Positions 1,926 to 8,707 of a stretch of 63,611 nt of DNA are shown here, piece by piece. Position numbers and translations under genes: made by a program. Numbering within the stretch: position 1 is the first letter of the stretch; every line of letters starts with the position of its first letter. Under the pieces are notes generated by a model. That model worked only from the letters and a program-made list of their open reading frames with translations. It did no database searches and had not been told where the DNA came from. This stretch comes from Actinomycetes bacterium (GTDB taxonomy: Bacteria > Actinomycetota > Actinomycetes > S36-B12): contig JAHECS010000004.1 in NCBI GenBank assembly GCA_024641635.1, positions 29,215 through 92,825 on the forward strand, read 5' to 3'.

Positions 1926-4264
1926 CGACCCCGGCGGTCGACCCGCGCACGGGACTGACCTCCGGCGAGGTTGCCGAGAGGGTCGCGCGCGGCCTGACGA
2001 ACGAGGCTCCCGACGCCCGCAGCCGCAGCCTCGCGGACATCGTCCGCGCCAACACCTTCACCTGGTTCAACGGGCTGATCGGGTCCCTGTGGCTGGTCAT
2101 GCTGGTTGTCGCGCCCATCCAGGACTCGCTGTTCGGCTTCGTCATCGTGGCCAACACCGGAATCGGCATCATCCAGGAGTACCGGGCGGCCCGGACCCTG
2201 GCGAAGCTCTCCGTCCTGGGGGCCGCCAGGCCGACGGTCAGGCGTGACGGCGTCGACTCGGAGGTGCCGTCGGAGGCCGTGGTCCTCGACGATCTCGTCG
2301 TCCTGGCCGCGGGCGACCAGCTCGTCGTCGACGGCATCGTCGTGGCGAGCGACGGGCTCGAGATCGACGAGAGCCTGCTGACCGGCGAGGCGGATCCCGT
2401 CGACAAGGCGGTCGGGGACACGGCGATGTCGGGATCGTTCGTGGTGGCCGGATCGGGCTCCTACCAGGCCACCCGGGTGGGGCGCGAGTCCTTCGCGGGC
2501 GGCCTCACCGAGCAGGCACGCACGTTCCACCTCACGAACTCGGAGCTGCGCGACGCGATCAACGGATTCATCCGCGGCATCTCGTTCATGCTCGTACCGG
2601 TGGGTCTGCTGCTCGTGTGGTCGCAGATCGTCCGGGCGGATCTGCCACTCGACGAGGCCATCCGCGGCACGATCGCCGGGGTCGTGACCATGATCCCCGA
2701 AGGTCTGGTCCTTCTCACGTCGATCGCGATGGCGGTCTCGGTCATTCGGCTCGCGCAGAAGCGTGTCCTGGTGCAGGACATGCCTGCCGTCGAGGTCCTG
2801 GCCCGGGTCGACACGATCTGCGTCGACAAGACCGGGACGCTCACGGAGCCGGGCATGCACGTGCGCCAGCTGGTCACCCTCGACGGGGCAGGTCCGCTGC
2901 CGGACGACGTCAACGCCGTGCTGGGGGCGATGGGCGCCAGCGAATCCGCGCCCAACCCGACCCTGCAGGCCATCGCCGCCACGTACGCGCCACCGGCGTG
3001 GGAGGTCAGCGGAACGGTGCCGTTCTCCAGCGCGCGCAAGTGGTCCGCCGCGGACTTCGGGGAGCATGGGACGTGGGTACTCGGAGCTCCGGAGATCGTC
3101 GCTGCGGACGGGGACGATGCCCGGCGGCGTGCCGACGAGATGGCTGCGGACGGGTCCCGCGTCCTGCTGCTCTCGCGTGCCTCGCGCCTCCCGGACGCGG
3201 CTCGGTCTCTCGACAGTGGCACGGCGGTCGCGCTCGTCGCCATCAGTCAGCAGCTGCGGCCGGACGCGGCGGAGACGGTGTCGTACTTCCTCGCACAGGA
3301 CGTCGCGGTGAAGGTCATCTCCGGCGACAATGCGACCACCGTGGGGGCCATCGCCAGCCAGGCGGGGGTGCCCGGCGCGGACAACCCCGTCGACGCACGG
3401 ACGCTGCCGCAGGACCCCGAGGCGCTCGCGGACGCAGTGGCGGGGGCCAGCGTCTTCGGGCGGGTCACGCCGGCCCAGAAGCAGGACATGGTTGCCGCGC
3501 TGCACCTCCGCGAGTCGACCGTCGCGATGACCGGAGATGGGGTCAACGACGTCCTCGCACTGAAGAAGGCGGACCTCGGCATCGCCATGGGGTCCGGCTC
3601 GGGTGCCACCCGTGCGGTCGCCCAAGTCGTGCTGCTCGACAACAAGTGGTCGGTCATGCCGAGCGTCGTGGCCGAGGGACGACGTGTCCTCGGCAACATC
3701 GAACGTGTCTCCGACGTGTTCCTCACCAAGACGAGCTACGCCGTCATCTTCTCCCTGGCCACCGGGCTCTTCGCCTTCGCGTTCCCGTTCCTGCCCCGCC
3801 ACCTGACCGTGATCGGCGCGCTGACCATCGGCATCCCCGGGTTCTTCCTGGCACTGATGCCCAACACCGAGCGCTTCCGCCCCGGGTTCCTAAGAAGGGT
3901 CCTGCTCTTCGCGATCCCGTCCGGGGTGATCTGTGCGGCATCCGCTCTCACGAGCTACTCGGTCGCCCTCAGCATCGAGGAGCCGCTGGGCAGCGCGCAG
4001 TCCGCCGCCACCGTCACGCTCTTCATCGTTGCCATCAGCGTCCTCCTGCAGTCGGCCCGTCCGCTGAACCTGATCCGGGTCGCGATCGTCGGCTCGATGG
4101 TCGTGGCCTTCCTGTGCGTGCTCTACATCCCCTTCCTCTCCCAGTTCTTCGCTCTCTCCCTCGCCCCCGAGCGGTACTCCGTCGTCGCGGTCGCCGCGGG
4201 CCTCGTGGGTGCCGTGCTGGTGTGGCTCGCGGCGCTGATCACCGACAGGTGGCGCCGGGCATGA
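1922..4264 (+). CDS. P-type cation-transporting ATPase, CtpE-like
   Basis: A 780-residue membrane ATPase. The actuator TGE is at residues 154-156, a PEGL motif in the M4 helix at about 259-262, the phosphorylated DKTGT at 302-306, and the hinge TGDGVND is well conserved. A run of hydrophobic helices closes the C-terminus. Length and local wording match Mycobacterium CtpE, implicated in calcium uptake, better than heavy-metal ATPases: there is no CPx motif and no N-terminal metal-binding domain. The GTG start overlaps the stop of the Ppx gene by 4 bases; an upstream in-frame ATG at 1865 would overlap that gene by 61 bases. The transported ion is inferred from family resemblance. Confidence 0.88.
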
Positions 4265-5073
4265 GCGCCGTCCCGCGAGTGGGGCTGTCGACGTCGTCCG
4301 TGTTCCCGGAGACCACGGCCGCCGCGTTCGAGCTCGCGGCCGCCTTGGGCTACGACGGCGTCGAGGTCATGGTGGGCACGGACGCGACCAGCCAGGATCC
4401 GGATGCGCTGCGGGCGTTGTCCGACCACTACGAGGTGCCGATCCTGTCGATCCACTCGCCCTGCCTCCTGGTGACGCAGCGCGTGTGGGGAACCGATTCG
4501 TGGGGGAAGCTGCAGCGGGCGCAGCGGGCCGCCGAGCAGCTCGGCGCAGACACGGTCGTGGTGCACCCACCCTTCCGGTGGCAGCGGGACTACGCGCGGG
4601 AGTTCGTCGAGGGCCTGGCCCGGATGGAGTCCGAGACCGACGTCAGGTTCGCGGTGGAGAACATGTTCCCTTGGCGCGCCGGGCCCGGGGCTGTCGGCGC
4701 CTACCTGCCGGACTGGGATGTGCGCAACGACGACTACCCGCACACCACCCTGGACCTCTCGCACACGGCGGTCTCGCGGAGCGACGCAATCGAGATGGCC
4801 TACGACCTGGGCGACCGGTTGGTGCACGTCCATCTCGCCGACGGCACTGACTCTCCCCGAGACGAGCACCTGGTTCCTGGTCGCGGCGACCAGCCGGTCG
4901 CGCAGGTGCTGACCCATCTCGTCGGCCGAGGATTCGCGGGCACCGTCATCGCGGAGATCAGCACGCGCCGCGCTCCCGACCGCGCGGCGAGGGCCGCCGA
5001 CCTGGCGGAGTCCCTCGCCTTCGCGCGGCTGCACCTGGGCCAGCACTGGTCGGGTCGAAACGACGACGCGTGA
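4261..5073 (+). CDS. Sugar phosphate isomerase/epimerase (AP endonuclease family 2 fold)
   Basis: A 270-residue TIM-barrel protein of the xylose-isomerase-like superfamily. Metal-ligand type residues are visible in the usual places: His in SIHSP, Glu in FAVENM, Asp/His in LDLSHT and HVHLADG, and Glu in VIAEI near the C-terminus. The ATG overlaps the stop of the ATPase gene by 4 bases (ATGA), indicating translational coupling. Orthologues occupy the same chromosomal position in mycobacteria (near proC). The substrate is unknown, and coupling to a cation ATPase offers no clear clue. Confidence 0.82.
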
Positions 5074-5117: not shown

Positions 5118-5765
5118 GTGGTCGTCCCGTCGGTCAATCCGCAGGACGCGGCCGGTGCAGTCCTCCAGGCCGCGCGTTTCGCCTTTGCCTCCCGCGGCTA
5201 CGCAAGCACGACGATGAAGTCCGTGGCTGCCGCGGCGGGAGTCGCGCCCGGTGTCGTCATGTCGTTGTACAACAACAAGGAGCGCCTGTTCGCGGCAGCC
5301 ATGCGACTGCCCTTCGATCCGTCTCAGGCGGTCCCCGAGCTCATCGCGCCCGGTCTGGACGGCATGGGGGACAGGCTGGTCCGCATGGTGCTCACCCTGA
5401 TGGGCGACGAGCAGGTGCGCAGGGACGTCGCGCGGGTGCTGAGGTCCGACACGGCGACCACCGTGTCCGCCTCGGCGGCCCGGAAGGCGGCGGACCCCGA
5501 GGCATCGGCCACCCTGGAGCAGATCCGCCTGGTGTCGGAGTACCTGTCCAGCACGGTCGTCGATCGGGTGGTGTCGGCCGTCGGCGTCCCTGACGCGCGG
5601 ATGCGGGTGGCCGTCATCTCGTCCTATCTCGTCGGCGTGGCCACGACCCGCTACCTGCTGCGCGTGGAACCGCTCGCGTCTGCGTCCGACGACGAGGTGG
5701 TCGCGCTGGTGGGGCCGACGATCCAGGGTCTGCTCGACCCGACGCGGCGACCGGGAATCACGTGA
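5118..5765 (+). CDS. TetR/AcrR family transcriptional regulator
   Basis: A 215-residue regulator. The N-terminal helix-turn-helix spans about residues 12-58, with the TetR hallmarks FASRGYASTTMKSVAAAAGV and the recognition-helix end LYNNKERLF. The remaining helical domain should bind a small ligand, not predictable here. The GTG is placed by a leaderless promoter, and a 16-bp palindrome sits over the -35. The stop overlaps the GTG of the proline-dehydrogenase-like gene by 4 bases, so the repressor probably controls itself, that gene, proC and perhaps acuC in one transcript. Confidence 0.9.
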   Translation: MVVPSVNPQDAAGAVLQAARFAFASRGYASTTMKSVAAAAGVAPGVVMSLYNNKERLFAAAMRLPFDPSQAVPELIAPGLDGMGDRLVRMVLTLMGDEQVRRDVARVLRSDTATTVSASAARKAADPEASATLEQIRLVSEYLSSTVVDRVVSAVGVPDARMRVAVISSYLVGVATTRYLLRVEPLASASDDEVVALVGPTIQGLLDPTRRPGIT

Positions 5766-6682
5766 TCCGCGGAGCGCTGTCGGCCCTCGCCCGCAACGAG
5801 CCGCTGGGCGGGCTGATCAGCCGGGCGCCGGTGGCGCGCGAGGTCGTCAAGAGGGTTGTCGGCGGGGACACGATCGAGGCTGCGCTGGACGTGGCCGGGA
5901 ACCTTGCGGACCGTGGCTTCTTCGTCAGCATCGAGCGCGCCGCCCCGGCCGTCACGACGCAGGAGGAGGCGGCCTCCGTGGCGGCCGAGTACCACGCCCT
6001 CATCGACGCCATCGGCGCAGCCGGACTCGCTGGGGTGTGCGAGGTGTCCGTGTTCCTCGAGTCCATCGGCCTGCAGGCCGGCGACGAGTCCCGCGCCAGG
6101 GAGCGACTTGGGGACATCGTGGCGCACGCAGGAGCGGGCCAGGTGGCAGTCATGCTGGGCATGGGGCCGCTGGCAGATGCGGCGACGACGGTGGCCTGGG
6201 CCGACGAGCTGCACGCGTCGGGTCATGCGGTCGGGGTGACGCTCGCTGCGGTGCTGCGCCGGACCGAGGCGGACTGTGCGCGGCTCGCGGACCGGCATGT
6301 GCGGTTGGTCAAGGGCTCCCACGGAGGGGACTCCGTCGACGCCTACCGCCAGCCGATCGAGACGGACAAGGCCTTCGTCAGGTGCGCCAAGAGCCTCCTT
6401 CGCGGCGGCGGGCAGCCGTCGTTCGCCACCCACGATCCACGACTGATCGACATCATCGGGGTCCTGGGGCAGCGATTCGACCGCCCTCGGCAGTCGTTCG
6501 AGTACGCCTTCTTCATGGGCCGTCACGAGCGGGAGCAGGAGCGACTCCTCGCCGACGGCGAGCGGGTGCGCGTGTACGTGCCCTACGGACCGGAGTGGTT
6601 CGAGCGGCTCGTGGGAGGCTTGGCGGAACAGCCCAGCACCATCGCGGCCGCCCTGCGATCGCTGCTGCCGGGCACGCCGTGA
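5762..6682 (+). CDS. Proline dehydrogenase-like protein with altered active site
   Basis: A 306-residue TIM-barrel protein clearly of the monofunctional PRODH family: the LRRTEADC segment (about 165-172), RLVKGSHGG (181-189), ATHD (222-225), and RVYVPYGPEW (270-279) align well. Canonical PRODH oxidises proline to pyrroline-5-carboxylate with FAD. However, residues that hold proline in PutA-type enzymes look replaced: the Arg-Arg pair near the C-terminus is Gly285-Gly286, the QAY tyrosine is Ala, KGAY is KGSH, and the MED segment is MLGMGP. The DNA (gtg gga ggc ttg) confirms the Gly pair. Translationally coupled to tetR and followed 22 bases later by proC. It may act on another substrate or be catalytically dead; the family call is firm, the activity is not. 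Confidence 0.72.
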   Translation: MIRGALSALARNEPLGGLISRAPVAREVVKRVVGGDTIEAALDVAGNLADRGFFVSIERAAPAVTTQEEAASVAAEYHALIDAIGAAGLAGVCEVSVFLESIGLQAGDESRARERLGDIVAHAGAGQVAVMLGMGPLADAATTVAWADELHASGHAVGVTLAAVLRRTEADCARLADRHVRLVKGSHGGDSVDAYRQPIETDKAFVRCAKSLLRGGGQPSFATHDPRLIDIIGVLGQRFDRPRQSFEYAFFMGRHEREQERLLADGERVRVYVPYGPEWFERLVGGLAEQPSTIAAALRSLLPGTP

Positions 6683-6704
6683 CCAGCCCTCGTCGGAAGG
6701 CGTG

Positions 6705-7508
6705 ATGTCCATGCGGATCGCAGTTCTGGGCGGTGGCGTGATGGGGGAGACGCTGGCAAGCGGGTTCCTTCGCCGCGTCCACCCCGCTCCTGACGTGGTC
6801 ATCGCCGAGAAGCGTCCCGAGCGGGCCGCTGAGCTCGTGCAAGCCCACGACGTGTCGATCGCCGATGCGCGAGAAGCGGTCCGCGGTGCCCGGGTCGTCG
6901 TGCTCGTGGTCAAGCCCCAGGACATGGTGGCGCTTCTCGATGACGTCGGCGCCGAGGTCGAGCCGGGCGCGCTGGTGGTGTCCATTGCTGCGGGGGTCCG
7001 CACGTCAACCGTCGAGGAGCGAGTCCCGGCCGGGGTCGACGTCGTCCGGGCGATGCCGAACACGCCCGCCCGAGTCGACAGGGGCGTCACGGGTGTCAGC
7101 CCGGGGCGGAACTGCTCGGCGGAGGGGCTTGCCCTCGCGGAGGACCTCCTTGCGTCGGTGGGTGTCGTGGTCGCCGTCCCCGAGGACCTGCAGGATGCGG
7201 TGACGGCGGTCTCCGGCAGCGGCCCGGCGTACGTCTTCTACCTCGCGGAGGCGATGACATCCGCTGCGGTCGACCTCGGACTCGACCGCGAGACGGCCAC
7301 GCGCATGGCCAACGGCACCATCCTCGGTGCCGCCACGCTCCTGGCCGCATCCGACGAGTCCGCCGACGTCCTCCGCCGCAACGTGACGTCGCCGAACGGC
7401 ACCACCGCGGCGGCGATCGCCACCATGGATCAGCTGGGCGTCAGGGAGGCGGTGGTGTCTGCGGTGACGGCCGCCCGGGACCGCAGCCGTGAGCTGTCGG
7501 GCGGCTGA
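6705..7508 (+). CDS. proC: Pyrroline-5-carboxylate reductase
   Basis: ProC reduces pyrroline-5-carboxylate to proline with NAD(P)H, the last step of proline synthesis. The Rossmann loop LGGGVMGE opens the 267-residue protein, and the signature around SGSGPAYVFYLAEAM and the SPNGTT segment near the C-terminus are clear. Three in-frame starts compete: GTG 6702, ATG 6705 and ATG 6711. A GGAAGG ribosome-binding site at 6695-6700 leaves 4 bases before 6705 and 10 before 6711, so either ATG is possible. It sits between a PRODH-like gene and acuC in one direction. Confidence 0.93.
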   Translation: MSMRIAVLGGGVMGETLASGFLRRVHPAPDVVIAEKRPERAAELVQAHDVSIADAREAVRGARVVVLVVKPQDMVALLDDVGAEVEPGALVVSIAAGVRTSTVEERVPAGVDVVRAMPNTPARVDRGVTGVSPGRNCSAEGLALAEDLLASVGVVVAVPEDLQDAVTAVSGSGPAYVFYLAEAMTSAAVDLGLDRETATRMANGTILGAATLLAASDESADVLRRNVTSPNGTTAAAIATMDQLGVREAVVSAVTAARDRSRELSGG

Positions 7509-7510
7509 TC

Positions 7511-8707
7511 ATGAGCGCGAGCGTCGGCATCGTGTGGGACGACCGACTGGCGGAGTACGACTTCGGCCCGGGCCATCCGCTGGCGCCGGTGCGCGTGCAG
7601 CTGGCGATGCGGCTCGCGGGTGAGTTCGGCCTCTTCAACCCGCCCCACGTCAGCATCCTCACGCCCGTGGAGCCGGTCGCCGACGAGCTGATCCTCCGCG
7701 TCCACGAGGCCGCCTACGTCGAAGCGGTACGGCAGGCGTCGGACGATCCGCACTTCTACGACGAGAGCCGAGGCCTGGGGACCTCAGACGATCCCGTGTT
7801 CCCTGGAATGCACCGGGCGTCGTGCCGCGTGGCGGGGGCGAGCCTGATGGCGGCCAGGGCCGTGCACTCCGGTGAGGTCGAGCATGCCGTCAATCTCGCG
7901 GGCGGCCTGCACCATGCCCTACCGGGGGCGGCCGAGGGTTTCTGCGTCTACAACGACATCGCTGTCGCCATCGCATGGTTGCTCGATCAGGGTGTGGAGC
8001 GCGTCGCGTACGTGGATGTGGATGTCCATCACGGCGACGGCGTGCAGGCGATCTTCTGGGACGACCCGCGGGTCCTCACCATCTCGCTGCACGAGAGCCC
8101 GCGCTCGCTGTTCCCGGGCTCGGGCTGGCCCACCGAGACTGGGGGGCCGGCGGCGCCGGGAAGCGCGGTGAACGTCGCCCTCCCGGCGGGCACCAACGAC
8201 CAGGGCTGGCTGCGGGCGCTGCACGCCGTGGTCCCGGACCTGCTCGGCGCCTTCCGGCCACAGGTCCTGGTCAGCCAGCACGGCGTCGACACCCACTTCG
8301 AGGACCCGCTCGCGCACCTGCTGGTGTCGTTGGACGGCCAGCGGATGGCCTTCGAGGCCCTGCACCGCTGGGCGCACAGGTACGCGGGCGGAGCGTGGGT
8401 CGCGGTCGGAGGCGGCGGCTACGAATGGGTGGACGTTGTCCCCCGGGCGTGGACGCACCTCATCGCGGAGGCCACGGGCCACCCGATCCCACCGGAGACC
8501 CCGGTGCCGGAGGGGTTCCACGAGTTCGTTCTCGAGGCCCTGGGCCGGCAGGCTCCCGGCCGCATGACCGACGGCCGTCAGCCCTGGCCACGACCCTTCG
8601 ACCAGGGCTTCGACCCGGACGATGCGATCGACCAGGCCATCCTGGCCACGCGCGAGGCCGTCTTCCCCCACTTCGGGCTGACGGCCGAGCCGGGCCTCTG
8701 GTTCTAG
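7511..8707 (+). CDS. AcuC-type histone deacetylase family protein
   Basis: A 398-residue zinc-dependent deacetylase of the arginase/deacetylase fold. The His-His dyad (GLHHAL), the metal-binding YVDVDVHHGDG loop, the second aspartate (HGVDTH) and the glycine-rich GGGGYEW loop with the catalytic tyrosine are all present. AcuC removes acetyl groups from acetyl-CoA synthetase in Bacillus; in actinobacteria it usually lies near proC, as here, and its substrates are probably acetylated metabolic enzymes. It starts 2 bases after the proC stop and has no good ribosome-binding site, so it relies on coupling. It could pair with the GNAT fusion protein at 28085-29731, which is a guess. Confidence 0.88.
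   Translation: MSASVGIVWDDRLAEYDFGPGHPLAPVRVQLAMRLAGEFGLFNPPHVSILTPVEPVADELILRVHEAAYVEAVRQASDDPHFYDESRGLGTSDDPVFPGMHRASCRVAGASLMAARAVHSGEVEHAVNLAGGLHHALPGAAEGFCVYNDIAVAIAWLLDQGVERVAYVDVDVHHGDGVQAIFWDDPRVLTISLHESPRSLFPGSGWPTETGGPAAPGSAVNVALPAGTNDQGWLRALHAVVPDLLGAFRPQVLVSQHGVDTHFEDPLAHLLVSLDGQRMAFEALHRWAHRYAGGAWVAVGGGGYEWVDVVPRAWTHLIAEATGHPIPPETPVPEGFHEFVLEALGRQAPGRMTDGRQPWPRPFDQGFDPDDAIDQAILATREAVFPHFGLTAEPGLWF

Follow-up and report, generated by a model that had tools for sequence, protein, structure and literature searches.

In the proline dehydrogenase (PRODH) family, Lys99 of the Thermus enzyme (Lys329 of E. coli PutA) is the catalytic base, and two Arg residues hold the carboxylate of proline (PMC10651016). 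The YxxRR motif of helix alpha8, Lys99 and the gate formed by Glu65 and Arg288 have been described (PMC6017737). In PutA, Asp370, Tyr540, Arg555/556 and Leu513 serve substrate binding while Arg431 and Glu559 serve FAD binding (PMC3718742), and in SmPutA Tyr485, Arg488 and Arg489 touch a proline analogue (PMC11596857). No report of a non-catalytic PRODH was found in the open-access literature. Here we analyzed a PRODH-like gene on a 63,611-nucleotide stretch of an actinobacterial contig (JAHECS010000004.1; "the window"), whose product, judged from its residues, is very likely no longer a proline dehydrogenase.

Gene cluster and predicted fold

The PRODH-like gene (5762..6682, plus strand, as are all genes below unless stated) is an intact open reading frame that starts with GTG and encodes 306 residues. 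Upstream lies a gene for a TetR-family regulator (5118..5765; PF00440 and PF17920), whose stop overlaps the GTG start by four bases (GTGA), and downstream lies proC, encoding pyrroline-5-carboxylate reductase (6702..7508; TIGR00112 at 256 bits, over its cut-off). The proC start may be ATG 6705 or GTG 6702, which places it 22 or 19 bases after the PRODH-like stop; the spacing of 22 bases given by an earlier sequence-only reading of this DNA holds for the ATG. The cluster is flanked by a sugar-phosphate-isomerase-like gene upstream (4261..5073) and an AcuC/HDAC-like deacetylase gene downstream (7511..8707), both named by reading of the sequence and both syntenic, the former in every family looked at within the order. 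The window genome also carries one canonical bifunctional PutA (G000:C3).

The PRODH family framework recognized in that reading was borne out at two levels: i) the protein matched PF01619 (Pro_dh) at 49.4 bits against a Pfam cut-off of 27, its match to NF045947, the NCBI equivalog of Thermus-type PRODH, being 123.5 bits and far short of the 500-bit cut-off; ii) an AlphaFold2 model built from 46 sequences formed a full (beta/alpha)8 barrel (pLDDT 87.5, pTM 0.85). The closest solved relatives are the Thermus (2ekg/2g37) and Deinococcus (4h6q) enzymes. Comparison with the PDB, run alongside Foldseek, aligned residues 1-291 of the model with residues 6-294 of the 2g37 chain (Z 37.1, rmsd 1.7 A, 286 residues, 31% identity), and the match runs at an offset of three residues towards the C-terminal end, thus backing the residue mapping used below. 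Model confidence in alpha8 was about 60, which is uninformative, since a canonical control was similarly low there.

Dismantled proline pocket and conserved FAD-contact positions

Residues of 28 clade members were compared with those of 70 canonical proteins under Thermus numbering, which was checked by E65, K99 and R288 falling at the positions given in the literature. The proline pocket was lost in 28/28 orthologues, while its positions were essentially invariant in 70/70 canonical proteins. In the window protein, the gate Glu65 is Pro62, the base Lys99 is Phe98 (codon 6053..6055), Asp133 (PutA Asp370) is Gly133 (6158..6160), Leu254 is Phe251, and Tyr190 is His187 within an RLVKGSH motif (6302..6322) that retains Arg181 and Lys184 on the FAD side. 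On alpha8, Tyr285, Arg288 and Arg289 are replaced by Arg282, Gly285 and Gly286, so that Tyr-x-x-Arg-Arg has become Arg282-Leu-Val-Gly285-Gly286 (6605..6619). The window protein therefore fails the residue tests for a proline dehydrogenase at YxxRR, at the base Lys99 and at Asp133/Tyr190/Leu254, although Tyr275 (window Tyr272) is retained. The sequence-only reading had correctly noted the Gly-Gly pair in place of Arg-Arg, the change of KGAY to KGSH and the altered aspartate region (LDMED); the changes at Glu65, Lys99, Leu254 and Tyr285 go beyond it. It had also reported the tyrosine of the QAY (LQSY/QAY) motif as Ala: this tyrosine (Thermus 165) is indeed lost, but to Val164, the Ala (Ala162) standing for Gln163.

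Across the clade, the pocket positions fall into two kinds. Some drift among genera: the Lys99 position is occupied by Leu, Phe, Pro or Tyr, and the Tyr190 position by His, Arg, Thr, Pro, Ser or Ala. Others are newly fixed: Arg282 and Glu58 (28/28 each), Arg254 (27/28, against 0/70 in canonical proteins, which have Val or Ile; Phe251 to Arg254 lie at 6512..6523) and Gly285-Gly286, with position 251 being Tyr or Phe. At the YxxRR positions themselves, Tyr, Arg and Arg were found in 70/70 canonical proteins, while the clade had Arg in 28/28, followed by Gly or Ala and then Gly or Asn. Other arginines at the carboxylate site had been named as evidence against a loss of proline binding, a point that is partly touched by the invariant Arg282, which takes the old Tyr285 place three residues before the lost pair; thus some anion could still be bound. 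One idea is that Arg282 and Glu58 might pair and plug the pocket.

On the other hand, the residues contacting FAD, namely Arg184 (PutA 431), Lys187, Thr226-His227 and Glu292 (PutA 559; Glu289 in the window protein, codon 6626..6628), were retained in 27-28 of the 28 clade members. Among 16 non-redundant members, mean entropy was 0.17 at FAD positions (P 0.0001 versus random columns) and 0.99 at pocket positions (P 0.07, not clearly under random), while in 18 canonical proteins it was 0.15 and 0.00 respectively. Thus constraint on the pocket has largely been released while that on the FAD site has not, and FAD is probably still bound, as these residues suggest.

The PRODH-like gene is under strong purifying selection: dN/dS was 0.057-0.22 in close pairs (g3, g12, L004/L005 and L006/L010), similar to that of proC in the same pairs. 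These values were taken from pairs with usable dS, leaving out wide pairs in the window's genus, where dS saturates. With the pocket lost and selection strong, the protein is very likely something other than a proline dehydrogenase. The earlier proposal that the losses mean a new substrate or a regulatory role is likewise well supported by a pocket dismantled clade-wide under purifying selection; as a whole, that reading was supported in part, its TetR coupling being the weaker element (see below).

Distribution and origin of the clade

The pocketless clade comes from one Nanopelagicales family of freshwater actinobacteria; its named relatives are metagenome-assembled genomes (MAGs), several of them Candidatus Nanopelagicales and several from lakes. 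Four 'Bifidobacterium breve' MAG contigs (L057, L067, L070 and L072) bear genes of this freshwater clade, and their titles look misassigned. The FAD-type form is present in genera g1, g3, g9, g12 and g13. Shorter forms in g4 (260 residues) and g8 (231-234 residues) have lost Lys187 and His227, and that of g8 also lacks the end of the barrel including alpha8; they still precede proC, with dN/dS of 0.15 in g4 and 0.13 in g8 (L131/L133). The g4 and g8 branches are long, and their nesting inside the clade is weakly supported (92/54). The g8 mini proteins lie between TetR and proC (L131, 2119-2814; L132, 2358-3062; and L133). Elsewhere in the family, genera g2, g6, g7, g10 and g11 have the isomerase-TetR-proC arrangement without a PRODH-like gene, g5 and g14 lack both TetR and the PRODH-like gene, and g12 has the PRODH-like gene without TetR. 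Within the genus to which the window belongs, roughly half carry PutA.

The same cluster (isomerase-TetR-PRODH-proC-AcuC-like deacetylase) contains a canonical PRODH at this place in the sister families f3, f4 and f7, with proC on the opposite strand in one locus of these families (L032). PRODH-proC adjacency also occurs in Nocardioides, Ornithinimicrobium and Actinomadura; it is old and common to canonical PRODHs. In the tree the clade joins the actinobacterial PRODHs with 100/100 support, and several other long-branched sequences from this order (L126, L127, L128, L135 and L139) attach near it, possibly by artificial attraction. The PRODH-like gene is thus an orthologue of canonical PRODH: a paralogue arising by duplication was rejected on account of the canonical gene at the same place in sister families and of the position in the tree. 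A role as helper of PutA was rejected as well, since in ten genomes with a completeness of 90% or more the PRODH-like gene is the sole Pro_dh match.

A search of 395 genomes of the class with a clade profile found no further member beyond this family: FAD-type members scored 400-480 bits, proteins from elsewhere did not exceed 263, and the Arg-Arg pair was kept in all of the 24 best outside-family matches, which were read out. Other divergent PRODHs of the order were seen in passing. In f7, a very divergent PRODH-like gene lies between TetR and proC (L126, G069:C26, about 2630-3475, minus strand) with Lys99 changed to Asp, Arg288-Arg289 to Ser-Gly and Lys187 to Arg; its genome also has PutA, its branch is long, and it is possibly an independent pocket loss. 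Also in f7, two PRODHs whose retrieved flanking sequence has no proC match (L135, G066:C103; L139, G061:C23) have Trp for Tyr285 and Thr or Asn for Arg288, a second and milder pocket change; L139 retains most other pocket residues, and L135 also has Arg for Lys99 and His for Tyr190. In f6, a PRODH before proC (L128, G159:C20) has Gln for Lys99, Gly for Asp133, Val for Tyr285 and Asp for Arg288, a possible third pocket loss in the order.

Candidate roles and comparison with known systems

The reading we tentatively favor, at somewhat short of an even chance, is that of a pseudoenzyme or a regulatory protein connected with proline metabolism, which would bind FAD and would not oxidize proline. 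An ordinary monofunctional actinobacterial PRODH, at its original operon place, would have lost, in the ancestor of the family, the base Lys, the Asp, the two Arg that hold the carboxylate, the Tyr and Leu that provide packing, and the gate Glu, while the barrel and the FAD-contacting residues were retained. The product might then act as a non-catalytic partner or sensor, the simplest option being to bind ProC or tune it, in the manner of a prozyme in which a dead enzyme regulates a living one. ProC is chosen since its gene follows immediately in those clade members that were examined; as partner it is a guess from adjacency and co-occurrence. Several genera have cleanly lost the gene and kept proC, so ProC has no general need of a PRODH-like protein. 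The divergence of proC with versus without the PRODH-like gene showed a weak trend that is confounded by phylogeny and was set aside. A more specific course, from catabolic flavoenzyme to non-catalytic ProC subunit or sensor in the original operon, with its stages (loss of the pocket, of the FAD residues and of alpha8) preserved in living genera, is conceivable but less likely than not.

The main rival, a serious possibility in its own right, is an FAD-dependent dehydrogenase for a different substrate, in which Gly-Gly would make room in alpha8, Arg282, now at the Tyr285 place, would hold an acid group from a different direction, and the ring pocket would be reshaped by Tyr/Phe251. The fixed FAD positions, the strong purifying selection and the residues that have become invariant within the pocket or close to it (Arg282, Arg254, Glu58, Gly285-Gly286 and Tyr/Phe251) all suit such an enzyme; indeed the newly fixed Arg282, Arg254 and Gly-Gly tell against a pseudoenzyme, being equally fit for a new ligand. 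However, i) the catalytic Lys has given way to Phe, Leu, Pro or Tyr with no visible substitute base; ii) several pocket positions drift among genera, unlike the trace of one shared new substrate; iii) g4 and g8 retain the protein after losing FAD residues; and iv) the neighboring genes point to no substrate. By the first three of these, sequence evidence leans towards the non-catalytic regulator over the new-substrate flavoenzyme, though undecisively.

The remaining explanations fare much worse. Service to the adjacent TetR, for instance as a co-sensor that produces or binds a ligand, is improbable: the sequence-only reading had coupled the two genes, and the four-base overlap and the adjacency of TetR in most members agree with it, but the pairing is weak, as TetR occurs beside proC without the gene in five genera and the gene without TetR in g12. 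Moreover TetR (window 5118-5765; L142-L147 and L150-L152) stays by proC after loss of the gene, which makes proC or the cluster the likelier partner. Continued proline dehydrogenase activity, with other arginines such as Arg282 or Arg254 holding the carboxylate, is slightly less probable again: Arg282 sits on the same helix as the lost pair, and the window protein retains Tyr272 and its FAD residues, but Lys99, Asp133, Tyr190 and Leu254 have disappeared together with the gate Glu and the Arg pair. Least probable is a decaying pseudogene, a PRODH relic left after PutA took over proline oxidation, which the presence of PutA in roughly half of that genus to which the window belongs and the absence of the gene from several genera would fit, but which is ruled out for the clade by the close-pair dN/dS (comparable to that of proC) and intact reading frames, and is opposed by the clade-wide new invariant residues and the many genomes that have the gene and no PutA.

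The dismantling of the pocket in a clade where the protein stays under selection shows a second use for the PRODH scaffold. Annotation by homology would label the gene as proline dehydrogenase and thereby credit streamlined freshwater actinobacteria with proline catabolism, which some of them, on present evidence, do not have. Furthermore, the series is graded over genera, which allows a direct test of how an enzyme turns into a pseudoenzyme.

Among known systems, the monofunctional PRODHs of Thermus thermophilus and Deinococcus radiodurans share with the window protein the fold over the whole chain, the N-terminal helical arm and the FAD contacts Arg184, Lys187, Thr226-His227 and Glu292, but differ at Glu65, Lys99, Asp133, Tyr190, Leu254, Tyr285, Arg288 and Arg289, all changed here. 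The canonical cluster PRODHs (f3, f4 and f7; Nocardioides and Actinomadura) are positional orthologues of 36-42% identity that keep YxxRR, KGAY, LDMED and Lys99, whereas the window protein does not. Bifunctional PutA shares homology in the PRODH domain, but its catalytic residues are kept and a P5C dehydrogenase domain is present (1145-residue frame). The possible likeness in mode of action is with the trypanosomal AdoMetDC prozyme, a catalytically dead paralogue that regulates the enzyme (PMC5201418). The prozyme has an unrelated fold, however, and while it is a paralogue, the putatively dead protein here is an orthologue, and its putative partner ProC is not homologous to it.
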